A stretch of 64,000 nt of DNA from Pedobacter sp. MC2016-05 (GTDB lineage: Bacteria; Bacteroidota; Bacteroidia; Sphingobacteriales; Sphingobacteriaceae), in NCBI RefSeq assembly GCF_026239735.1, contig NZ_JAPIVT010000005.1:62001-126000 (forward strand), read 5' to 3'. The notes beneath the pieces are model-generated. The model worked only from the letters and a program-made list of their open reading frames with translations, ran no database searches and was not told where the DNA came from. Shown here in pieces: positions 3,410 through 62,333 of this stretch. Each line of letters begins with the position of its first letter. The stretch's first letter is position 1. The position numbers and the translations under genes are program-made.

Positions 3410-4126
3410 TTATTCTACTGTTTTTTCAAATAGTAGGAAATGCTGTAAGGGGAGAAATTTGCCGTTCTTAACCAGCTTAAATCCACTGGCTTCGAGCTCT
3501 TTTTTCACTTGCTTTACACTCATTTTGTGCTCTGGTTTGATTGCTACCTGTGGGTTTTCTGCTTTATACTCTAATAGCAGCAGCTGACCATTAGGTTTAA
3601 GCGCTTTGCTTATCGCTGCGAGGTATGCTGCAGGGTTTTCTAATTCATGATAAACATCTACCATAAATGCCAGGTCAATTGAATTGGCTGGTAAATTGGG
3701 TGAGGTATCTGAGCCTTTGATCACTTCCACGTTTTTAACACCATCGTCGAATGCTTTTTTCTTAAGGTGATTAATTGCATCATTTTGGATTTCGACTGCA
3801 TATACTTTAGCCTTCGGAATACGTGTAGCAATCCGGAAAGTATAAAATCCAGATCCTGCACCAATATCAGCAACAACGGTGTTGCTCTTTAGTGGCATCG
3901 ACGCCAAAGCCAGATTAGTGTTTTCTTCCGCTGTCCGGCTGTTTCTTTCCAACCATTCTACGCCTTCGAAGCTCATTACCTGGGCAATCTCGCGGCCCAT
4001 ATATACCTTGCCTGTACCATTTGCAGATGGTTTTTTGAAAGTGTAAGGCGATTGTTGTTGCTGTGCAACGGCCGTTTGAAGCAATAACACCAAGAAAACG
4101 GGAAAGACAAAATTTGATATTTTCAT
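3410..4126 (-). CDS. Exported class I SAM methyltransferase
   Basis: A 238-residue Rossmann-fold methyltransferase. Motif I is VVADIGAGSGFYTFRIA (about residues 84-100), the acidic ribose-binding E112 is in VYAVE, and DLAFMVDVYHE with LKPNGQLLLLE are the post-I motifs. It begins with a convincing signal peptide (a hydrophobic stretch ending in VAQ about residue 22), which is strange because SAM is made and used in the cytoplasm. Similar signal-bearing methyltransferases are annotated in Bacteroidota and Proteobacteria; the substrate is unknown. Monocistronic. Confidence 0.8.
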   Translation of the reverse strand: MKISNFVFPVFLVLLLQTAVAQQQQSPYTFKKPSANGTGKVYMGREIAQVMSFEGVEWLERNSRTAEENTNLALASMPLKSNTVVADIGAGSGFYTFRIATRIPKAKVYAVEIQNDAINHLKKKAFDDGVKNVEVIKGSDTSPNLPANSIDLAFMVDVYHELENPAAYLAAISKALKPNGQLLLLEYKAENPQVAIKPEHKMSVKQVKKELEASGFKLVKNGKFLPLQHFLLFEKTVE

Positions 4127-4235
4127 AGTAATGAAGTATAATTTATGTGAAATTATCTATTTCTAAAACGATGTCATGAGGTTATAAAATCGACTAAACA
4201 AATGTACATTTCTTTTTTGGTGATGTTTTTTATCT

Positions 4236-4949
4236 CTACGAACGGGAAAAGATCAAATTATGATTTTCAACGGCGGAAGTTTTGAGTTTTGACCTAAACT
4301 CCTCATCACTTTTAAACCTGAGCTGCGTTATTGTTCTGGTTTCATAGCTGACTGAAAATTGATCTGTTTCAAAAGGCCATGGCTCAACAATGAGTGATTC
4401 TTCTTTTTGAAAGAGGAAATAGGGAAGTCCGTTAGGTCCGGTACTGATTTCTACCTTGCGGCCTTCAGGCGGGATTTGCGACTGACAGATCAATAAGGAA
4501 AGGGCATCTGAAAATTCCAAAAGAGCGTAAGCCAGGTCAATTGATTTTTTTGTAACTTCTGTATCCTTAAGCCATCGGGGTTCGTGCTTTTTTAGATTTG
4601 TTATAAAACTTTTGGCTAATGGATCGCTCCCGTGGGTAAAAGAAATGTGTCTGGCGATTAATAGCGCAATAACCCGGCTTTTGGTCAATGCCATGTCCAT
4701 CAATCTCGTCGAACTGTCCAGGTCAAATCTGGTACTCTTAAAATTGATCGGTGCTCCATTCTCATCAATAAGCGGACTGCGTTCGAATTCATTGTAAACG
4801 TCATCATGTTCAGCTGTTGCGATTAAGGTCTCAACCCATTTTTCGGGCTGATCCGTAACTTTCCATCGAGCGCAAATCTGCCCGGCGAGCAATCCGTGTG
4901 AACGCTGGGTAACGATGTGCCAGCTTTTTTCATCATATTGTACAATCAT
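4236..4949 (-). CDS. DUF3891 family protein
   Basis: A 237-residue cytosolic protein resembling the DUF3891 family: an N-terminal strand with the conserved segment SHGLLAGQICARWK, then an AEHDD segment near residue 60 that might bind metal. ATG 4949 is preferred over the in-frame start at 4985 because family members begin at the MIVQYDE-like strand. No signal peptide or membrane segment. The family has no assigned reaction to my knowledge; the conserved His/Asp pairs suggest an HD-like all-helical fold, which is inference. Confidence 0.7.
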   Translation of the reverse strand: MIVQYDEKSWHIVTQRSHGLLAGQICARWKVTDQPEKWVETLIATAEHDDVYNEFERSPLIDENGAPINFKSTRFDLDSSTRLMDMALTKSRVIALLIARHISFTHGSDPLAKSFITNLKKHEPRWLKDTEVTKKSIDLAYALLEFSDALSLLICQSQIPPEGRKVEISTGPNGLPYFLFQKEESLIVEPWPFETDQFSVSYETRTITQLRFKSDEEFRSKLKTSAVENHNLIFSRS

Positions 4950-26224: not shown

Positions 26225-28924
26225 TTATTTGATTCGGCCACTTTCATTCTCTAAAGCAGAAGTTCGGGTTCTTGGACCTTTTGAGTTTCCGGTAGAAAAC
26301 TTGTAACTGAAGCTCAGTTTTAGTTGTCTGGTTTCAAAATAGCTATAGTTTCGGATGGTAAAATCCCCTATGCTTTGAAAGGAGTTTGCCTTGCTTCCTT
26401 TGAAAATATCACTATAAACAACTCTTAAAGTTCCATTCTTTCGCCAAAAGCTTCGCTGTAATCCTATGTCTACCTGACTATTGGGTTCAAAGAACTGATT
26501 TGCTCCAACAAGGCGTTTAGAGTTGTAAAATCCCATCAGTTCGCCAACAAAACCCTTGGGCAATCGGAATGTCTGCTGGAGACTTAATCTCGCAGCTGTT
26601 TGTTTAAGATCAAGGGTTCGGCTATTCCCGAAATCAATGTTGTTATTAAGACGGAAAAGCGTTCCATTAAAGGTAATATCCCACCAAGCCACAGGCTTTA
26701 GCGATTGGGTTAGTGTTAATGCAACATGCTGTTGATTGCCCAGGTTTCGGGGAATCATAACAATTTTCGATGAACCGATGGTATCCGTTACCTCCATGCT
26801 AAAATCATTGTTATACGTATAACCTAAGCCGATGATGGTGCTTTTGTGTACATATTGTATTAGTCCTCGATGGCTGATCTGAGGTTTCAGGAATGGATTT
26901 CCTTGCCAGAAAGAAAGTTCATCCAATAAATAAATAAAGGGATTTAGATTTTGGTAAGCTGGCCGATCTATCCTTTTGGAATAACTAAAAGAAAAGCTAT
27001 GTGAAGGGGAGGCCGTTAAACTGGCGGAAAAGAAAGGGAAGAAGTTCGTGTAGTTTCGGTTGATAGTTTGCTGATTGCCTGAAATTTCGGAAACTTCTTC
27101 GAGCATACCTCTCGAACGTGAATTTTCAACCCTCAAACCGCCCTGGAGTTGCCATTTTCCAAATGGTTTCTTATAGTTAACATAACCACTGCTAATGTTC
27201 TCCTCGAAAGAGAATTTGTTCGATCTTGAGGGATCCAGCACTTCACCTGCCGGCTGGATTTCCAGAAACCGGGAGTTGTTTGAAGAGGATACGCTTGAAT
27301 ATTTCACCCCAGTCTCCAGTTTTCCTTTCCAAAGATTTGTCGTGTAATCGACTTTAACCGCACCTAAACTAATATCAATACCATTTAATGAGCGATAAAG
27401 GTTATCACTGAGTACAGTTTGATCATTCAGCGTATACTTGTTAGATTGAAGGTTTCCTGCTCGTTTGGTAAAATTCCCATAGTCCGCGTCAATATTCAGA
27501 ATTCTGCCTAACGTATCTTCAAATTTATAATTCGCGTTAAAATTATATCGTTGGGTACCTTGCGCATAATAGTCGTTCACTGCAGTAAGCGTTTGCTCCA
27601 CTATCTTCGTCGACTCCAGGCCAATTTCGGTTTTGGTATCTGTTATTCCTCCACCAAAAAGGAAATTACCATTTAGTAATATGCCTACAGTACTTTTTTT
27701 ATTAATCATAAAATCTGCACCAATTCTCGATCCGATTTTATTTCTTTTGTCAACGTCATCGGTGAAGCTATTATAGAATCTACCCTCTTGAATTCGGTCT
27801 CCTCCGTAGAGATAAGAATAATAGCCGAAAAAATGACTATAGGAACCATAAAAATTGAATCTGTTTTTTCTATAGTTGATGGAAAGATCCTGATTGTTTC
27901 TCAAATAAACGCCATAATTTAGCCCTGAGGTGATGCTCATGTTCAAGCCATTTACAGTCGATTTCAAAGTCTTTACATTGATAATCCCAGCCGTACCTGC
28001 AGCATCGTATTTGGCTCCGGGACTGTTGATGATTTCAATTGATCTGATATTGGAGGATGACATCGTCTTAAGTAGTTCTGCAACTTCTCCGTTAGATAAA
28101 TAACTCATCTTTCCATCAATTAAAATCGATGCCCCCGATTTACCATTCAACGAGATGGAATTATCACTGGCAACGCTGACACCTGGTGCCCGGGCTAACA
28201 GTTCAAGTGCATTTGTGCCCTGTGCGCTGATGCTTTTGGAGACGTTGAAGACAATATTTCCGTCATTCATTTCAATTACCCTTTGATTTCCATTAACCTG
28301 TACCGATTGTAGATTTTTAGATTGGGATTCGAGGGTGATCTTTCCAAAATCTTGTATCCCGATAGGATATTTATCCACTGGCAATTTTAGAATTAGGTTG
28401 TCGTATCCAAGGGAAGTTAGCTTCAAAGTGAAACCATTATTTTTTCTCAATGGATAGGAGAATTTAAAATTTCCATGCTCGTCTGCAATGGTTCCACCTA
28501 CCAACACTCCGCTTTCTAAAAGTGAAACTGTTACAAATGGAACTCCATGGTCATTGCTATTCATAACTTTTCCAGAAATGATCACTTGATTAGGGCTGGA
28601 TTTTTCAAGCTCCATCTCTTTGCTTCGAATCACAATCAATGATGCTGAAAGTGTTTGAGAAAATAGGTTTTTGAAGGCTAGGACGCTATCCAGTAATTTA
28701 TTTACGTTTATTTTATTTGCCTCAATTGATATCAACGTAGAATCGGAAACGATTTCGTTACTGTAAATAATGGAGTATCCTGTTTGACTCTGGATCTGCT
28801 TAAATAGCTCTATAATAGGTTTTTTATCAAGTTTTACTGTAACCTGTTGGGCATTCGCTGATAAACTCGCAACGATGAATAACGCAAGCGTGATAATGAA
28901 ATAACGATATTTTTTAGCAGTCAT
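26225..28924 (-). CDS. STN-type TonB-dependent outer-membrane receptor A
   Basis: An 899-residue outer-membrane receptor: signal peptide (about 1-25), an STN/secretin-like N-terminal domain (about 28-105, VKLDKKPIIELFKQIQSQTG), a carboxypeptidase-regulatory-like domain (VIISGKVMNSNDHGVPFV), a plug (SSNIRSIEIINSPGAKYDAA) and an outer_membrane_beta-barrel family 3 type barrel with C-terminal aromatic SFSYKF. ATG 28924 is preferred to the TTG at 28930. Directly downstream of a homologous receptor (20-nt gap) in the sigma/FecR cluster, so ligand-induced expression is likely. Ligand unknown. Confidence 0.88.
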   Translation of the reverse strand: MTAKKYRYFIITLALFIVASLSANAQQVTVKLDKKPIIELFKQIQSQTGYSIIYSNEIVSDSTLISIEANKINVNKLLDSVLAFKNLFSQTLSASLIVIRSKEMELEKSSPNQVIISGKVMNSNDHGVPFVTVSLLESGVLVGGTIADEHGNFKFSYPLRKNNGFTLKLTSLGYDNLILKLPVDKYPIGIQDFGKITLESQSKNLQSVQVNGNQRVIEMNDGNIVFNVSKSISAQGTNALELLARAPGVSVASDNSISLNGKSGASILIDGKMSYLSNGEVAELLKTMSSSNIRSIEIINSPGAKYDAAGTAGIINVKTLKSTVNGLNMSITSGLNYGVYLRNNQDLSINYRKNRFNFYGSYSHFFGYYSYLYGGDRIQEGRFYNSFTDDVDKRNKIGSRIGADFMINKKSTVGILLNGNFLFGGGITDTKTEIGLESTKIVEQTLTAVNDYYAQGTQRYNFNANYKFEDTLGRILNIDADYGNFTKRAGNLQSNKYTLNDQTVLSDNLYRSLNGIDISLGAVKVDYTTNLWKGKLETGVKYSSVSSSNNSRFLEIQPAGEVLDPSRSNKFSFEENISSGYVNYKKPFGKWQLQGGLRVENSRSRGMLEEVSEISGNQQTINRNYTNFFPFFSASLTASPSHSFSFSYSKRIDRPAYQNLNPFIYLLDELSFWQGNPFLKPQISHRGLIQYVHKSTIIGLGYTYNNDFSMEVTDTIGSSKIVMIPRNLGNQQHVALTLTQSLKPVAWWDITFNGTLFRLNNNIDFGNSRTLDLKQTAARLSLQQTFRLPKGFVGELMGFYNSKRLVGANQFFEPNSQVDIGLQRSFWRKNGTLRVVYSDIFKGSKANSFQSIGDFTIRNYSYFETRQLKLSFSYKFSTGNSKGPRTRTSALENESGRIK

Positions 28925-28944
28925 AGCCAATACTCTTAAAGTAG

Positions 28945-31584
28945 TTAATTACCCATCCTTCTATTTTCCTCTTTATTGCTTTGCTCAATGTTGTTTTGAT
29001 TAAACTTATTACCGAGGCTGAAATTATAGCTGAAGGATAAACTAATATTCCGGGTTTGTCGCTTTTGATAAAAATCGATTATGGTGCCGTTATTAAACGA
29101 AAATTCCTTTTCTCCCACGGTATTAAATACGTCGGAAAGATAAATTCGCAACACTCCTTTTTCTTTAATTATTTTTTGAGAAAGCATCAGATCAACGTAG
29201 AACAGATGCCCGAGCCTCGTGTTACCGGAAAGCGATGGGGATTTATATTCTAAAATGATATCCAAGCTCGGTAATTTTTTGAAACTTATGGTCTGCATAG
29301 ATTTTGCGGCCAGCGTAGTCTTTGTATTGCCCAGGTTATTTGTAGAAGCTGAAGCCCGGTAAAGGGAAAGGCTGTAGTTGCTCTTCCAGGCCTTCGAAAT
29401 TTGCGGTGAAGCATTTAAGTTCAAGCCGTATTCCGTACCTTTTCTAAAGTTAAATGATTTGTACTCGACAACATTATTAGCAATTGTATTAGCCAGCAAG
29501 GCAATCAGATTAGCGGTTGAAGAGAAATAAACATCGAAACTGTAATGGCTCAGGAAATTATAACCTGCCTGAAAATTATGCGAATATTGTGGCAGTAGGT
29601 CAGGATTTCCCGTTAAAATCATATAGTCGTGAACTTGCAACCGATAAGGATTAAGATCATTAAAAGATGGTCGTTGAAGCCTTTTGGAGTAGTTAAGGAA
29701 GAGCGATGAACCTTTATCTTCATTGAGCGTTCTCATTAAATAAACCGATGGAAATAGGCTAAAATATTTTCTTTTGAAAGCGTCGCCCGATGTAACTGAA
29801 AGTCCGTTGGAATGGGTTTGCTCGGCTCTTAATCCAATTTTAAGGCTGTTTGGGCCGATAGTTTTTTCAAGCGTTGTATAAGCCATGGCCAACTGTTCTT
29901 TATACAGAAACTGATTACTGATTAGCGGATTATTTATCCACAGGCCTTGAGCCAGATTTTCGCTTATGCTTTCATTATCTCTGTGGATAGCACTATACTT
30001 TATTCCACTCTTCAATTCAAGTTTATTTTTCCAGTTTTTGGTGTAATCAATTTGGCCGGCATAAATTTCTGTACTGCTCGGTGTCAAGGTTCTGGATTGC
30101 ATGTTGCTTAACGGGGAGCTATAAGTTGTTAAAAGCTGATTTTGCTCCTTTTTAGCGTTTTCAGAATAATCTCCAATCACCTTTAATGAGGAGCCAAGAC
30201 TGTCGATCTTCCATGTATAGTTAAGCGTGGTGCTATTAAATTTAATTTTTCTATCCCAATCTGCACGGGCATAACCTGTTCTGGTGGTGATATTTCGATA
30301 GTTGATATCTGTTAAAAATAGTTGCGATGGTTGATTCTTTGAACCTGTATTTTGTATTGCCAGTGATTGATTTGACGCAATGTCGTAAACCGCATTGAAA
30401 CGATATTGATATCTCGAAATTTTGTTGCTGCGAACCGTTGTATTGCTAAAGGTGCTCGCATCAGGGTAGTAAAAGGTTTCTTCACCATAAGAAGAATTTT
30501 TATCATTGGTGTATGAGCCATTACCGGCTAAATAAAGCCTTTTTAGCTTGTAAGCCAACGAGCTTCCACTAGTGATCAATCCCTGCTTTCCCTGTTTTTG
30601 ATACCTCGCATTCAGGGATCCGTTAAGACCATCTTTCCGGGATTTGTTGAGCACAATATGAACGATCCCACCTGTTCCTGCGGCCTCGAATTCTGCAGGC
30701 GGGTTATATATTACCTCAATTTTACTGATATCTTCGGACCTTAGTGATTTTAGGTATTCTGCTAAGTCATCTTGCGACATCCGCTGAACAACGTCGTTGA
30801 TCATCACCATCACAGATTGATTTCCCTTAATCCTGATGCTGCCATCCTGATTTACCCAAATTCCAGGAGATTTTTGTAATACCTCGAAAGCTGATAATCC
30901 TTGGGCTAGTGAACCGTTCTCCACATTAACGATGTAACGGTCGGTTTTTCTTTCGATGAGTGGTTTAGTGTTGACGACTGTTACGGTTTGCAAGGTTTGT
31001 GCGTCTTCAAACATCACCAGCTTTTGTAAATGAGAAATATCTACAAGGGTAAAGGAAATTTCGAGTGGTTTATAACCGACAAAGGTTGCCAGTAACCTAT
31101 AGCCATGTTCGGGTAAAAGAGGAGAGCTGAGCTGGTAAAAACCGTTATCATCACTTACTGTTTTTTCTATGATATCTGATGATCGTAGTAGGGTTAAGGA
31201 TACAAAGGGGATGCCTACGCCATTTTTATCTGTTATTGTTCCGGAGAATGCCGACCTGGAAACATCGCGGTTTTTCAGCGGGTAATTTTGATAACCAACT
31301 GCAATCAGTTTTTCGGAGATTAAATTAAAAACCAATCGATGGGCTTTAAGAGCCGTTCCAAGCACGTTGGAAACAGCCATGTCTTTTACCTTTATCGATA
31401 CCAGCATCGTATCCTGAACAACTTCATCACTGTATATAAAACCATAATCGCAATGTTTTTCGATTTGTTTAAACAATTCTTTAAGCGGTTGTTGCCGCAA
31501 CGTCAAGGTTAATTTTCTTTCCTGAGCCGAAATATCGGAACCCACTATCCACAGTAGCACAAGAAGCATCATCGCCTTTCTCAT
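28945..31584 (-). CDS. STN-type TonB-dependent outer-membrane receptor B
   Basis: An 879-residue receptor with the same architecture as its downstream neighbour: signal peptide (1-20), STN domain (LTLRQQPLKELFKQIEKHC), carboxypeptidase-regulatory-like domain (GTITDKNGVGIPFVSLTLL), plug (SEDISKIEVIYNPPAEFEA) and beta-barrel. The STN domain classically touches the periplasmic part of FecR to signal substrate binding. Its ATG overlaps the fecR stop by 4 nt (ATGA), so it is translationally coupled. The tandem pair probably arose by duplication, though they are clearly divergent. Confidence 0.88.
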   Translation of the reverse strand: MRKAMMLLVLLWIVGSDISAQERKLTLTLRQQPLKELFKQIEKHCDYGFIYSDEVVQDTMLVSIKVKDMAVSNVLGTALKAHRLVFNLISEKLIAVGYQNYPLKNRDVSRSAFSGTITDKNGVGIPFVSLTLLRSSDIIEKTVSDDNGFYQLSSPLLPEHGYRLLATFVGYKPLEISFTLVDISHLQKLVMFEDAQTLQTVTVVNTKPLIERKTDRYIVNVENGSLAQGLSAFEVLQKSPGIWVNQDGSIRIKGNQSVMVMINDVVQRMSQDDLAEYLKSLRSEDISKIEVIYNPPAEFEAAGTGGIVHIVLNKSRKDGLNGSLNARYQKQGKQGLITSGSSLAYKLKRLYLAGNGSYTNDKNSSYGEETFYYPDASTFSNTTVRSNKISRYQYRFNAVYDIASNQSLAIQNTGSKNQPSQLFLTDINYRNITTRTGYARADWDRKIKFNSTTLNYTWKIDSLGSSLKVIGDYSENAKKEQNQLLTTYSSPLSNMQSRTLTPSSTEIYAGQIDYTKNWKNKLELKSGIKYSAIHRDNESISENLAQGLWINNPLISNQFLYKEQLAMAYTTLEKTIGPNSLKIGLRAEQTHSNGLSVTSGDAFKRKYFSLFPSVYLMRTLNEDKGSSLFLNYSKRLQRPSFNDLNPYRLQVHDYMILTGNPDLLPQYSHNFQAGYNFLSHYSFDVYFSSTANLIALLANTIANNVVEYKSFNFRKGTEYGLNLNASPQISKAWKSNYSLSLYRASASTNNLGNTKTTLAAKSMQTISFKKLPSLDIILEYKSPSLSGNTRLGHLFYVDLMLSQKIIKEKGVLRIYLSDVFNTVGEKEFSFNNGTIIDFYQKRQTRNISLSFSYNFSLGNKFNQNNIEQSNKEENRRMGN

Positions 31585-32615
31585 TCCCGTTCCTTAATTA
31601 CAACCAACCTTTTGTTGATTGTATAGTTCAGTGGGTATGATAATTTAAGGGAAGCTATTGCCTGTTCGATCGTTTCGTTTATAAATATTCCGCTAAACCT
31701 TTTTTCCTTTAGCGCTTCGCTTTGGATATCTATTTTAACATCGTACTTTTTCTCAATTTTAAGGACCAAATCCTTAAGCTTTTCTTTTCTGAAAACAAGC
31801 GTGTCAGCAATCCATCTGGTTTCAGCCAAAAGCACAGCTGGATTTACCAATTTCATTTGTAGCTTATTCTCTTTATCCTTTAGTTGTGTGTTGTAAATAA
31901 TTTTTTGATTGGGGCGTAATAATAAACTGTTGTTATTTAGTCTGTCACTAATTTCAATGAGTCCTCTTAGTAGTGCTACCTCAATATCTTTGCTATTCTT
32001 TTCAGCTTTGACATTAAAAGCGGTGCCTTTTACCTCGATATCAATATTTCCAGCGTGAACATACAGCGGAACCTGGTTGTTTTTGACTACATCAAAATAG
32101 GCTTCGCCTTCTATTATTATTTCTCTTGCACTTGCGCCAAAGCCCTTATTGTAACGTAAGGTTGAATGTTTGTTTAACCAAACTTTGGTGCCATCGTCCA
32201 GCATTTTAAAAGTCTTCACTTCTTGAGTGGTTAGCTGCTCAAATTCAGTAGGTTGTTGCCTGTTTAGACGTTGGTAAAGCAATAAACCTGCAAAGAATAT
32301 GATAATTATGGCTGCAGCTGATCTAATCCATATTGCCGAGCGGACAATTTTATTTGGTTTGGAATAGCTGTATTTACCCTTGAACTGTTCATTTTCATTT
32401 GCCCCAACAGTGGCCCAGATTTGGTTTAACTGCTGCTGACCATCCGGGCTGACGGTTGTAGGTTGCTTACGCAGATAGTTCTCCAAATCATCTGCCAATG
32501 CTTTATAATGTTCATTTTCGCTGATCGCGACGTTTAAAAGATCTTGGTTCTCGGCATTAATTTTACCCGAAATTTTTTGGGAAAATAATTTAATGAATTT
32601 TTGTCTGTTCATCAC
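31581..32615 (-). CDS. fecR: FecR-type anti-sigma factor
   Basis: A 344-residue inner-membrane regulator. An N-terminal cytosolic helical part (about 1-90) binds the sigma factor, one transmembrane helix lies about 92-117 (SAAAIIIIFFAGLLLYQ), and the periplasmic FecR domain follows (GTKVWLNKHSTLRYNKGF, GEAYFDV) with a C-terminal DUF4974-like STN-interacting segment (LSYPLNYTINKRLVVI). It transmits the receptor signal to the ECF sigma encoded just upstream. Overlaps the receptor B start. Confidence 0.92.
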   Translation of the reverse strand: MMNRQKFIKLFSQKISGKINAENQDLLNVAISENEHYKALADDLENYLRKQPTTVSPDGQQQLNQIWATVGANENEQFKGKYSYSKPNKIVRSAIWIRSAAAIIIIFFAGLLLYQRLNRQQPTEFEQLTTQEVKTFKMLDDGTKVWLNKHSTLRYNKGFGASAREIIIEGEAYFDVVKNNQVPLYVHAGNIDIEVKGTAFNVKAEKNSKDIEVALLRGLIEISDRLNNNSLLLRPNQKIIYNTQLKDKENKLQMKLVNPAVLLAETRWIADTLVFRKEKLKDLVLKIEKKYDVKIDIQSEALKEKRFSGIFINETIEQAIASLKLSYPLNYTINKRLVVIKERE

Positions 32616-32666
32616 TCCATGCTTTTACATTAAAGACAGTTTCAATTTAAAAACTACTCACTACGG

Positions 32667-33281
32667 TTAGAAAAAAAAGGAAAGAAGCAATTGAGAAGCC
32701 ACCCTACGCTTTTTCCTATTTTGAGGGTGATAACCTAAATATAGACTCAGCGTATCCGCCAAAGATTTGACAGCTTTGTATAGCTGGTTTTCAACCGTCC
32801 TCACCGAAATTCCCATAATTTCTGCTACAGCCTTGGTCTTTAATCCATCTTCTTTGATAAGAATAAAAATAATTCTTCGCTGTTCTGGGAGTCCAGCCAC
32901 TGCTTCATCAAGGAAATTGTATAACTCCTGGTCAGCCATACCCGAATTTTCTTGATTCATGGGTTCTTCTATGGGAGAAGAGAGGCTGAAGATTGAATTT
33001 CTCTTTTTTTCGGATCTAATCAGATTGAGACAGGCATTCTTTATTGAAATGAACAAATATACTTCTGGATTGATCACCTGAGAGAGATTGTGCCGTTTGA
33101 GCCATAGTTTCACAAAGAGTTCAGATGTGATTTCTTCAGCGCCTTCCTTACTTTTAATATATTGTTTTGCCAAACACAGTAGCTTATGGTGATATAGCAT
33201 GAAAAGCTCATCGAAAGCAGCTTTGCTACCCTGCTCAATGTTTTCAAATAGCGATAAAATCTTAAGTTCTTTCTCTGACAT
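32667..33281 (-). CDS. ECF sigma-70 factor
   Basis: A 204-residue extracytoplasmic-function sigma factor. Region 2 is visible as KLLCLAKQYIKSKEGAEEITSE-type helices with VFISIKNACLNLIRS-like DNA melting segments, and region 4 as LPEQRRIIFILIKEDGLKTKAVAEIMGISVRTVENQLYKA in the C-terminal third. First gene of the sigma-FecR-receptor-receptor cassette, 51 nt upstream of fecR. It should direct transcription of the receptors when FecR releases it. Confidence 0.92.
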   Translation of the reverse strand: MSEKELKILSLFENIEQGSKAAFDELFMLYHHKLLCLAKQYIKSKEGAEEITSELFVKLWLKRHNLSQVINPEVYLFISIKNACLNLIRSEKKRNSIFSLSSPIEEPMNQENSGMADQELYNFLDEAVAGLPEQRRIIFILIKEDGLKTKAVAEIMGISVRTVENQLYKAVKSLADTLSLYLGYHPQNRKKRRVASQLLLSFFF

Positions 33282-34859: not shown

Positions 34860-34911
34860 CGGCGCAAAATCTATCTGTTCTATACTTTTGAGAGACAAAA
34901 ATAATATAGAT

Positions 34912-35739
34912 ATGGAAAAGATAATAGAATCCGCCGTTGGTATTTTTAGTATTTCAGCCATCCGGTATTTTGTACTTGCCGGAGTTCCTTTCATGCTGTT
35001 TTATCTCTTGATGCCTGCTAAACTGAATAAGTTTAAAATTCAGCAAAAGTCGGCAACAAAAAAAGACTTCATCCGTGAGGTATGGCATTCCATGCAGAGT
35101 ACGTTTGTATTTTCAATCATCGCAGTGGTGTTAATTTTCACCCCAATTAAGCAGTACACCAGAATTTATAGTCAGATCGATGATTTCCCGGGATGGTATA
35201 TCGGTGTTGCTTTGGTTTTGAGCCTCGTAATCCATGATACTTATTTTTATTGGATGCACCGACTGCTACATCATAAAAAACTTTTCAAACTTGCCCATCT
35301 GGTTCATCATAAAAGCACTAATCCGTCACCATGGACTTCTTATAGTTTCCATATACTGGAAGCCTTTACCGAAGGCTTTGTTTTGGTGCTAATTGTGATG
35401 CTGTTGCCGATGCATCCCTTAACAATATTGCTGTTTACTGTGACAGGTTTCATCATAAATGTGTACGGCCATCTTGGCTATGAAATCATGCCTAAATGGT
35501 TTCGCTTCACCCTGGCGTTTGAAGTTTTGAATACTTCAGTTCACCATAACCTGCACCACAGTAAATTTAAGGGAAACTATGGACTGTATTTCAGGTTCTG
35601 GGATAGGGTAATGGGCACCGAACATCCGGATTATGTGAAGGAATACGACCGCTTGCAGGATCAGCGCTTTGCTCGGGATCCTTTTGATAAACGAGAGTTG
35701 AAGATACAGCAAAAGGAGAAATATGAGCAGGCGCTCTAA
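34912..35739 (+). CDS. Sterol desaturase/fatty acid hydroxylase family protein
   Basis: A 275-residue di-iron membrane oxygenase of the fatty-acid-hydroxylase superfamily (PF04116). The eight-or-more histidine pattern is intact: HDTYFYWMHRLLHH (108-121), HLVHH (129-133), an intervening H187 and HHNLHH (211-216). Four hydrophobic segments surround the motifs. Members hydroxylate or desaturate sterols, carotenoids, sphingolipids or fatty acids; here a lipid hydroxylation (for example sphingoid or carotenoid) is most plausible. The start is ATG 34912. Follows a Crp-like regulator and ends convergently with susD 2. Confidence 0.88.
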   Translation: MEKIIESAVGIFSISAIRYFVLAGVPFMLFYLLMPAKLNKFKIQQKSATKKDFIREVWHSMQSTFVFSIIAVVLIFTPIKQYTRIYSQIDDFPGWYIGVALVLSLVIHDTYFYWMHRLLHHKKLFKLAHLVHHKSTNPSPWTSYSFHILEAFTEGFVLVLIVMLLPMHPLTILLFTVTGFIINVYGHLGYEIMPKWFRFTLAFEVLNTSVHHNLHHSKFKGNYGLYFRFWDRVMGTEHPDYVKEYDRLQDQRFARDPFDKRELKIQQKEKYEQAL

Positions 35740-40200: not shown

Positions 40201-40452
40201 TTCCACTTCTTTAGTGGCGAAGCCGATATAAGAAAATACCAATGTGCTCTTGCCAGTTACCGTAATGGTAAAACTGCCGGCACCATTACTCGTTACTGCC
40301 TGTTTGGTACCTTTTACAAAAATGGAAACACCGGGCAGAGTTTCTCCTGATGAACTTTTAACCGTGCCTGATATGGAGATGTTTTGTGCACGTACGAATG
40401 GGGAAAACAATAGCAGAAATAATATTGCCGGAAGCTTAATCTTGTTGAACAT
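37279..40452 (-). CDS. susC: SusC/RagA-type TonB-dependent transporter (riboswitch-linked)
   Basis: A 1057-residue outer-membrane transporter. It has a signal peptide (1-22, ending VRAQ), a carboxypeptidase-regulatory-like domain (about 25-100), SusC-signature DEVVVTALGISRQKKSLGYA (TonB box and start of plug), a plug with NDIESISVLKGPNAAALYGS, and the large barrel ending RSYGINLNIKF. It is first in a two-gene operon with the SusD partner. Its leader of about 280 nt is preceded by a SAM-I riboswitch and terminator, implying control by SAM and so perhaps uptake of methionine or a sulfur compound. Confidence 0.93.
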   Translation of the reverse strand: MFNKIKLPAILFLLLFSPFVRAQNISISGTVKSSSGETLPGVSIFVKGTKQAVTSNGAGSFTITVTGKSTLVFSYIGFATKEVEVSGDTQVLNVVLNDADNALDEVVVTALGISRQKKSLGYAVQELKGESLTEARESNLVNALAGKVAGVRVTNSQGDMGSSRIVIRGETSISGNNQPLFVVDGIPVDNSQLNSAGARDYANTISDINPNDIESISVLKGPNAAALYGSRAAAGVVIIKTKSGKSKKGLGVSFNSNGVIESLLTLPKYQDVFGQGSEGKFSYVDGKGAGTNDGVDESWGPRMDGRLIPQFFSKGVAVPFVANPDNVRDFFETGYSLSNGIAVEDAGEKFDYRLSYNNLKQVGVVPNSGQDKNSFALNTTLRITPKLTLTANANYSKLGSDNLPGTGGSRSTSTMLQFTWFGRQVDINQLKNYRDENGNTFNWNNSYYSNPYWVAYENTVSQNRNRIIGNIGLNYKITDGLNFNFRSGTDYYNDRRKIKIAYGTNGTPFGSYTESAFTVNESNTDATLNYTKQLNDDFSVEALLGTNIRSRYIEQNDQSAPRLAVAGLYTLNNSRDPLTSSNNYSKLKSYSGYASAQIGFRNYLFANVTARNDWSSTLPAQNRSYFYPSFNGSLVLTEAFDIKSEVLDYAKIRGGWSKVGKDADPYRLINTYSFSAPFGSNPQLSPSATDLNPDLKPETTTSSELGAEAVLFNKRLRFDVSLYNTNSYDQILSVDVSQSTGFRSKLLNAGKINNKGVEVQLGVTPIRKQLTWDIDVNYAANRSKVIELDQAGLLQNYVVATNSAQVIAAVGQPYGTLFGNAFLRDGSGNIIVNATGAPQTDPTKRVLGKYTPDWIGGISNTFTYKGISLGVLIDASFGGSIYNGTYATGTYTGVLASTLPGRAAEFGGISYYYPGNVKANGTVRLADGATAPAGVTVYDDGMIFDGVTADGKRNEKILSAQTYYKSFRTIDEANIFDASYVKLREIKLSYNLPSKWIRPLSLQGVSVSLVGRNLAILHRNVADIDPEVAFNTGNGQGLESLSNPTTRSYGINLNIKF

Positions 40453-40728
40453 AATAGATATTGTTGATGATTAATTAAGGGATGATGTCGCGAAATTTAG
40501 GCAAAGCTCTTCCACTCCGCTTTTGACGAATTTTTAACACACTGATAATGAAAATTTTAAGTTTTTGTGGTATCCGCTGATTTTAGTCTAGACAAATACC
40601 CGTTCGCATTCGGTCTCTTTTACTTCGGTTTGAAATGCATGCGTAAATTGATTTTTGCTCGTTAGTTTTTTCCATTTAATTTATTTTTCTGATAGATCAA
40701 CACTTATCAATTGTAGCAATCCGCTTAT

Positions 40729-40760
40729 AAAAAAAAGCACTCCTATAAATCAGGAGTGCT
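40729..40760 (-). terminator. Intrinsic terminator of the SAM riboswitch
   Basis: On the minus strand AGCACTCCT pairs perfectly with AGGAGTGCT (stem 40736-40760, 7-nt loop) followed by a run of eight T. The textbook terminator placed 35 nt after the aptamer is the expected expression platform. The aptamer's GGTGCT could pair with AGCACT of the stem (six pairs, one G-U) as a possible antiterminator. Confidence 0.9.
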
Positions 40761-40795
40761 CTCATATTCATTAACAATGATTTGGCCTTCAACTG

Positions 40796-40894
40796 ACTTA
40801 ACTATCCCGGACTTTCCGGGATGGAATTAGCACCATACCTAAGGCTGGTTGCTAAGGTTTCACAGGGCCATTCCCTCCACCTTTCTTGATAAGT
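40796..40894 (-). ncRNA. SAM-I (S-box) riboswitch aptamer
   Basis: The minus strand carries the S-box core in order: CTTATCAAGA at the 5' P1 side, GGTGGAGGGAATGGCCC with TGAAACCTTAGCAACC (P2/P3 and kink-turn core), GGTGCTAATTCC (J3/4-P3), a P4 hairpin with CCCGGA/TCCGGG, and TTAAGT closing P1 (with one mismatch). The conserved positions of RF00162 are met. SAM binding should stabilise P1 and favour the terminator at 40729, switching off the downstream susC2-susD2 genes when SAM is plentiful. Confidence 0.93.
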
Positions 40895-40912
40895 ATTTTA
40901 AAATAACTGGCG

Positions 40913-40920
40913 CAAAGATA
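40913..40920 (-). promoter_or_regulatory. -7 element of the riboswitch transcript
   Basis: On the minus strand TATCTTTG followed by CG matches the Bacteroidota -7 consensus and lies 19 nt before the aptamer, a natural start point for this leader RNA. Confidence 0.6.
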
Positions 40921-62202: not shown

Positions 62203-62333
62203 ACCAAAAGAATTTTTTAAACCTTATTGCAGCGGTATCCTTTTAACTTTTTCTGTTAAAAGATTTAGCGGAAAGAAGGAACGAGCTTAAATAGTTGTGA
62301 GGTGCTACTTCAATTGCTTTTCCAAATATTTCA

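Follow-up and report, generated by a model that had tools for sequence, protein, structure and literature searches.

A SAM-I riboswitch and a cysteine-codon leader upstream of a conserved SusC/SusD operon suggest control by sulfur amino acids in Pedobacter and its relatives

The SusC/SusD operon and its riboswitch

The window, by which we mean the whole stretch of 64,000 nucleotides analysed here, carries on its minus strand a two-gene operon for a SusC/SusD (RagA/RagB) pair (Table 1). Profile searches found the plug, barrel and CarbopepD_reg_2 domains of the transporter, whose gene adjoins that of the SusD lipoprotein. A first-pass annotation of this DNA had described the operon as lacking carbohydrate enzymes, which is correct for susC and susD and applies to that operon only. 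No co-directional gene behind susD was present in more than 10 of 80 homologous loci (described below). Apart from SusC and SusD themselves, the divergent TlpA-type neighbour formed the largest protein cluster, found in 33 of the 80 loci, and a second cluster of shorter redoxins occurred in 14 of them. Two other features were observed elsewhere in the window: a structured RNA, Flavo-1 (RF01705, 56.6 bits), at 62215-62286(+), and, at 26225-33281(-), two large TonB-receptor-like ORFs after FecR-type anti-sigma-like and ECF-sigma-like ORFs, as judged by their translations.

Table 1. Features of the susCD locus, in positions of the window
Feature	Position	Strand	Basis or remark
SAM-I (S-box) riboswitch aptamer	40795..40895	-	RF00162; own model R1 also matches
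-7 promoter element TATCTTTG, Bacteroidota TAnnTTTG	40913..40920	-	Read from sequence
Intrinsic terminator of riboswitch	40729..40763	-	Hairpin and T tract, by folding
Predicted antiterminator	40746..40802	-	P1 3' strand GTTAAGTCAG with CTGATTTA
uORF, 30 codons and stop, MEKTNEQKSIYACISNRSKRDRMRTGICLD	40583..40675	-	Diverged relative of Cys-codon leader peptides
Block AAAAGCGGAGTGGAAGAGCTTTGCC before susC	40500..40524	-	Similar block in 14-sequence group-A alignment, 7-bp RNAalifold stem
susC, SusC/RagA TonB-dependent transporter, 1057 aa	37279..40452	-	TIGR04056, 643.7 bits
susD, SusD-like_2 lipoprotein, 477 aa	35835..37268	-	PF12771, 385 bits
Divergent TlpA/ResA-type thiol-disulfide oxidoreductase, 443 aa	40988..42319	+	PF08534, PF00578; CPNC motif in translation
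Fatty-acid-hydroxylase-type ORF	34888-35739	Opposite to susCD	Next gene past susD

A complete S-box aptamer had been proposed on the minus strand at 40796-40894, with a covariance search as the way to check it. A cmscan run over the whole window matched RF00162 at full length (model positions 1-108) with 85.9 bits (E 6.4e-19), above the gathering score of 44.4 bits, which establishes the aptamer. Our own SAM-I model R1 was built from 19 aptamers of the family, the window copy among them. The -7 element noted upstream by the first-pass annotation was also found, and a TAnnTTTG motif lies at most 45 nt upstream of the aptamer in all 38 related loci that have SAM-I less than 420 nt before susC. 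The terminator, previously read as a 9-bp stem with a poly-T tail at 40729-40760, is real and is longer than that: the hairpin GAGAGCACTCCTGATTTATAGGAGTGCTTTT (40763-40733) folded with 13 pairs at -17.5 kcal/mol, and behind it a T tract extends to 40729.

The 3' strand of P1 (40802-40793) can pair with a segment of the 5' arm and loop of the terminator (40753-40746). This antiterminator duplex, at -7.0 kcal/mol, appeared when a partial transcript was folded, and the fold of the complete leader gave a P1-type helix and the terminator; the mutual exclusion of P1 and antiterminator is thus a prediction from folding. In a comparison made without a shuffled control, the best duplex fell on the matching stretch of the terminator in 24 of the 38 related loci, and was elsewhere or weak in the other 14 (including L095, L096, L123 and loci outside L095-L123). 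By its anatomy the leader is a standard S-box off-switch, for which control by SAM is predicted. It shares the full-length aptamer, the terminator and the predicted antiterminator with SAM-I riboswitches that act through intrinsic termination, and unlike them it precedes a SusC/SusD pair, with a leader uORF after it.

Conservation of the riboswitch upstream of susC

Relatives of the operon were collected by a SusD-alignment scan of GTDB species genomes, in which 212 relatives were confirmed and the best 80 named loci were kept. They span Pedobacter, Mucilaginibacter, Hufsiella, Sediminibacterium, Flavihumibacter, Ferruginibacter, Flavobacterium, Mariniphaga and others. With our own model, SAM-I was detected ahead of the orthologous susC in 54 of the 80 loci, in addition to the window; a second match in L148, downstream of susD, was left out of the count. 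The first-pass annotation had pointed to other Pedobacter as the place to look for the same leader, and SAM-I indeed precedes susC in 33 of the 35 Pedobacter loci, as well as in 17 of the 20 from Mucilaginibacter. It was not found in the locus sequence of the remaining 26, which include all six Flavobacterium loci (0/6). In all 27 SAM-I-bearing loci of L095-L123 the aptamer is 315-361 nt from susC, the value for the window being 343 nt. Some loci of the whole set have a redoxin or cysteine-desulfurase-like gene inserted between SAM-I and susC.

A set of loci chosen by aptamer score, which overlaps the 80 loci in part, had SAM-I directly before susC in 24 of 57 classified loci (16 of the 73 were dropped, where the core pattern missed the aptamer). 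SAM-I as such is widespread, with at least one copy in 198 of 201 genomes of the family. The genome of the window has three copies; the other two stand before a metH-like ORF, with a metF-like ORF behind it, and before a metY/metX-like operon (names from translations).

Other genes were also seen behind SAM-I. A class-V aminotransferase similar to cysteine desulfurase comes immediately after SAM-I and a short leader in L008, L009, L011, L016, L017, L021, L024, L027, L035, L056, L058 and others, Pfam having been run on L009 only. In L093 the riboswitch is followed by a DUF4833 protein (4003-4644; PF16117, assigned in L093 only), and similar ORFs were observed in L091 and L094, which suggests a link of that domain to sulfur or SAM.

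Cysteine codons in the leader reading frames

The distance from the terminator at 40729 to the ATG of susC at 40452 is 276 nt, as had been stated before, and this spacer contains a uORF that was absent from the first-pass list. It has two Cys codons in all, one of them in the last 12 codons, retains an RMR...C end, and stops 130 nt before susC. Because of that single Cys in the last 12 codons, the window's susC leader having no run of Cys codons near the stop, the uORF is a diverged relative and not a member of the poly-Cys leader-peptide attenuators, and the cysteine arm of the window copy is probably weakened. Fewer than two Cys in the last 12 codons were also found in 10 of 34 Pedobacter leaders. 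Of 27 leaders examined (the window and L095-L123), 26 yielded an open uORF of the window kind, with RM[RC] in 24 of the 26 and the stop 123-160 nt before susC.

The relatives are much richer in cysteine. At least two Cys in the last 12 uORF codons were found in 57 of 77 susC leaders (three of the 80 loci have the susC start beyond the locus sequence), compared with a mean of 9.7 of 77 (maximum 13) in 20 rounds of dinucleotide shuffling and with 6 of 77 when the reverse strand was read. Of 440 regions preceding other ORFs of at least 250 aa in the same loci, 39 reached this level. CCC occurred in 20 of the 77, against 0.1 in the shuffles, none on the reverse strand and 2 of the 440; in all these counts the leaders are related and are not independent events. 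SAM-I is also present in 43 of the 57 leaders, and the other 14 are among the 23 leaders in whose locus sequence it was not found. The uORF ends include ...LRMCKGICCCMRL (L103), ...FSPCCCCCSAY (L108, Sediminibacterium), ...NHSCCCCCC (L126, Hufsiella), ...SLMCCCCCSR (L139) and ...MSSMQNMCCCC (L134), and, where SAM-I was not found, ...ISCCCCCCNCC (L124), ...EGCCCCTSPSRMRMCIR (L161, Mariniphaga) and MKKRMCCR in three of the six Flavobacterium. The part of the peptide before the Cys run varies between genera; the run and its spacing are kept. The uORF stop lies at a median of 131 nt from susC (quartiles 120.5 and 149), and the uORF stays near susC even when a redoxin gene separates SAM-I from susC (L126, L131), and also in the 14 leaders where SAM-I was not found. 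A nucleotide pattern for FRM(R/C)xxC-stop matched 18 places in 60 genomes of the same genus; in 14 cases the site lay between S-box and susC, in four cases elsewhere.

At the criterion used, a hairpin with a T tract overlaps the uORF end in only 10 of the 77 relatives (L101, L109, L112, L113, L116, L118, L120-L123). In these the 5' arm contains the Cys codon, and the stop falls within the arm or the loop. The hairpins next to the uORF end in L102 and L141 are weaker. A second terminator, sought as a hairpin with a T tract, was not found after the window uORF. Pairwise differences among 26 uORFs had no third-codon-position excess (0.413, 0.383 and 0.392), which is expected if only the control codons matter, yet provides no independent coding signal. 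A protein search of the window's own genome with the 30-aa peptide returned the self-match only. The RMR of the peptide resembles an Arg-Leu-Arg leader motif described in an excerpt of PMC8632094; an arrest peptide of the macrolide type was rejected, since the third residue of RMR is R in some leaders and C in others, and since susC, not a resistance gene, comes next. A conserved fold between the uORF and susC was also rejected: RNAalifold gave one 7-bp stem in the window group and no conserved fold in 15 Mucilaginibacter-type leaders. In Pedobacter-type leaders the sequence around GTGGAATTGCTTTGCC forms a conserved block that includes a short stem; it lies about 50 nt before susC and may be a hairpin, a weak promoter or the target of a regulator.

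The same arrangement was found at metY. The clearest tandem of SAM-I and poly-Cys uORF in the window genome is its metY leader (L005, G000:C7), where SAM-I at 85922-86032 is followed by the uORF MKILNLQSQSELRLNLKKVENSSILLICCDMQAITCMCCCIQ (then stop), ending CMCCCIQ; the poly-Cys run near the stop, present in many of the orthologous susC leaders, is present in this metY leader too. Among the pattern matches examined in that genome (30 of 95, and 11 of 11), the combination of an S-box with a poly-Cys uORF behind it was seen at metY alone. Eleven other metY leaders of the family all have an S-box core upstream. The uORF ends in at least CC in five of them (L074, L076, L087, L089 and L184, L184 itself having been picked up by its Cys run), and six have no CC-ending uORF (L036, L060, L077, L078, L085, L090). 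In L075, SAM-I is followed by a uORF ending CCKRMCCC and then by an M28-type peptidase. Poly-Cys uORFs were also observed at most 80 nt before other SusC-like genes, in L183 and L194. The poly-Cys pattern matches inside other reading frames too, so that its matches serve as leads and not as counts; of 30 loci examined from a longer list, most are not leaders.

Three other explanations of the leader have to be considered. The 276-nt spacer had led the first-pass annotation to suggest that the riboswitch once served a gene since lost and is unlinked to susC expression, and in L095, the nearest relative of the window, a promoter-like TAnnTTTG lies 57 nt before susC, where the window has GAGCTTTG. 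A weak second start in the spacer may therefore exist. However, the window and 37 of the 38 related leaders have no TAnnTTTG in the spacer (from 75 nt past the aptamer to susC it occurs in L095 alone), so that a second spacer promoter was rejected. Together with the 54 of 80 loci that have SAM-I ahead of susC and the narrow spacing in L095-L123, this makes a lost gene extremely improbable; because of the conserved synteny, spacing and promoter placement, the riboswitch is a conserved part of the susCD operon and not a remnant. It is also very improbable that the Cys enrichment arose from composition, CTG-type repeats or common descent and does not represent a run of control codons. The leaders are related, and TGYTGYTGYTGY runs do occur inside other reading frames, but neither shuffles, the reverse strand nor the 440 control regions reproduced the enrichment, the run and spacing are kept while the preceding peptide differs between genera, and the Cys run recurs at metY. 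More serious, if still doubtful, is the possibility that only SAM-I matters in the window's species and that the uORF is a decayed relic with no regulatory effect. The single Cys in its last 12 codons, the missing second terminator and the missing third-position signal would all fit a relic, which would in turn have to account for the open uORF with RM[RC] in 24 of 26 Pedobacter-type leaders, 123-160 nt before susC, and for CC or CCC at the aligned place in the sister loci L098, L099, L103 and L106.

Proposed regulation, cargo and relation to known systems

We consider it likely that the operon encodes a SusCD importer repressed by sulfur amino acids, with SAM and, in the family, Cys-tRNA as the inputs. 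From the aptamer, terminator, promoter motif, conserved association with susCD and Cys enrichment of the uORFs found in the sequences, we infer the regulation in the cell, the ribosome stalling and the cargo as follows. Transcription would start about a dozen nucleotides before the aptamer, judging from the -7 element. At high SAM, P1 would be stabilised and the antiterminator blocked, the terminator at 40763-40729 would form, and susCD would be off. At low SAM the antiterminator would form and RNA polymerase would run on into the spacer, where a short leader peptide would be translated whose control codons, in the family, would be those for cysteine. Slow decoding by Cys-tRNA would then hold the transcript open in the direction of susC, in one Pedobacter clade by masking the second intrinsic terminator and elsewhere through another step, perhaps Rho-dependent. 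Since Cys codons are reduced in the window's species, SAM control would probably dominate there. Several observations count against this reading: the window uORF has one Cys in its last 12 codons, and 10 of 34 Pedobacter leaders likewise stay below two; SAM-I was not found in 26 of 80 loci; L095 has its promoter-like motif; SusD is not especially close to BT_2263; no second terminator was found in the window, and one overlaps the uORF end in only 10 of 77 relatives; no third-position excess was found; and six of 11 other metY leaders have no uORF ending in CC.

The first-pass annotation had proposed that the SusCD pair takes up a methionine or sulfur source (a peptide, a sulfonate or a thioether). 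A sulfur or methionine role is supported by SAM-I in 54 of 80 loci, Cys uORFs in 57 of 77 leaders and the met-like neighbours of the other SAM-I copies; the cargo itself is a matter of interpretation. Sulfur amino acids are the class of cargo indicated by regulation through SAM and, across the family, through Cys codons. Given the SAM sensor and the Cys-rich leader gene in relatives, we suggest that these amino acids, probably in peptide form, and not sugars are what the importer takes in. The solved structure nearest to SusC is BT_2264 (E 7e-137, the next chain being at 1e-50), and the BT2261-64 complex contains an oligopeptide according to an excerpt of PMC7782687. The nearest solved relative of SusD is 5j5u (8e-50), BT_2263 reaching only 3e-28, and SusD seems less telling than SusC on cargo. 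Since the SAM/Cys regulation, the closeness of SusC to BT_2264 and the TlpA-type neighbour agree, the cargo would be reduced organic sulfur, most likely Cys/Met-containing peptides, possibly disulfide-linked; this is the favoured reading, and other organic sulfur is possible. The TlpA-type neighbour would perhaps reduce the disulfides.

A non-peptide sulfur cargo (a sulfonate, a sulfated or thioether compound, or glutathione) or a cofactor of the SAM cycle is unlikely in our view. SAM-I and Cys leaders report sulfur status and not cargo, and in L075 and L081 the SAM-I operons have an M28 peptidase with PA and TFR-dimer domains, both of which leave room for such a cargo. Peptides are nevertheless preferred: the solved SusC nearest to ours is BT_2264, with an oligopeptide in its complex, and the TlpA-type neighbours would fit disulfide-containing peptides. 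The L075 (1955-4195) and L081 (1734-6599) operons are a candidate for another sulfur-regulated uptake set; in L081 a redoxin and a TonB-plug protein are present as well, and in L075 a similar-looking ORF. Their M28 peptidases with PA and TFR-dimer domains are presumably glutamate-carboxypeptidase-II-like.

For many SusCD pairs the cargo is unassigned, and they are usually labelled as glycan importers. The leader of mgtA in Salmonella combines a metal sensor with a leader peptide; it is similar in having two RNA-based sensors in one leader, one a translated short ORF, and it differs in signals, mechanism and cargo. Canestrari (2020) is said to concern the poly-cysteine leader peptides of actinobacterial cys operons. 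In an excerpt of PMC1262725 such peptides are described mostly without an obvious terminator, and Rho-dependent control is proposed for the terminator-less ones, which may be one possibility for the effect of a stalled ribosome in the window's species. Like those leaders, as far as the excerpt goes, ours are short ORFs with Cys codons near the stop and mostly no obvious terminator; unlike them, they belong to another phylum, stand before susC and metY and often occur with SAM-I, and the window copy has few Cys codons. The uORFC-8-2 motif, in the part of PMC8632094 that describes it, has Cys codons in a stem with an intrinsic terminator behind, before a CysS gene. The Pedobacter clade with the CCTGTTAAA...TTTAACAGG hairpin resembles it, except that here susCD is downstream and the motif follows a SAM-I riboswitch. 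The likeness to the oligopeptide SusCDs BT2261-64 and RagAB (PMC7782687, in excerpt) is one of sequence closeness only, SusC being nearest to BT_2264, whereas the best solved relative of the window SusD is another protein, 5j5u.

In Bacteroidota, attenuation by leader peptides has been proposed for operons of amino-acid biosynthesis (excerpt of PMC9723704) and from sORFs in B. thetaiotaomicron (excerpt of PMC7366714), and a 2013 survey, in its excerpted text, gives two RNA regulogs for Bacteroidaceae (PMC3766115). Among the matches listed from the open-licence literature, none described SAM-I on a SusCD operon or a tandem of SAM-I and Cys leader, which argues only weakly that no such description exists. 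Taken singly, none of the elements is new: SAM-I riboswitches, poly-Cys leader peptides and peptide-binding SusCDs have all been described before. The novelty suggested by the first-pass annotation, an extension of SusCD beyond glycans, does not hold, since SusCDs handling non-glycans were known; the proposed tandem control of a SusCD by SAM-I and a Cys leader would be a new variation on these known elements.

A wider proposal, on which we are evenly divided, is that in Sphingobacteriaceae and relatives SAM-I in series with a Cys leader couples the SusCD to the metY operon, both opening only when SAM and charged Cys-tRNA are low, that this SusCD founds a class of importers for Cys/Met peptides, and that the Cys leader is older and wider, with SAM-I added later. 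The conserved riboswitch and Cys-codon leader would assign a nutrient class to one orthologous SusCD group, in a form directly testable by growth, and two RNA sensors for two sulfur amino acids would act in series within one leader, both at an importer and at a biosynthetic operon.
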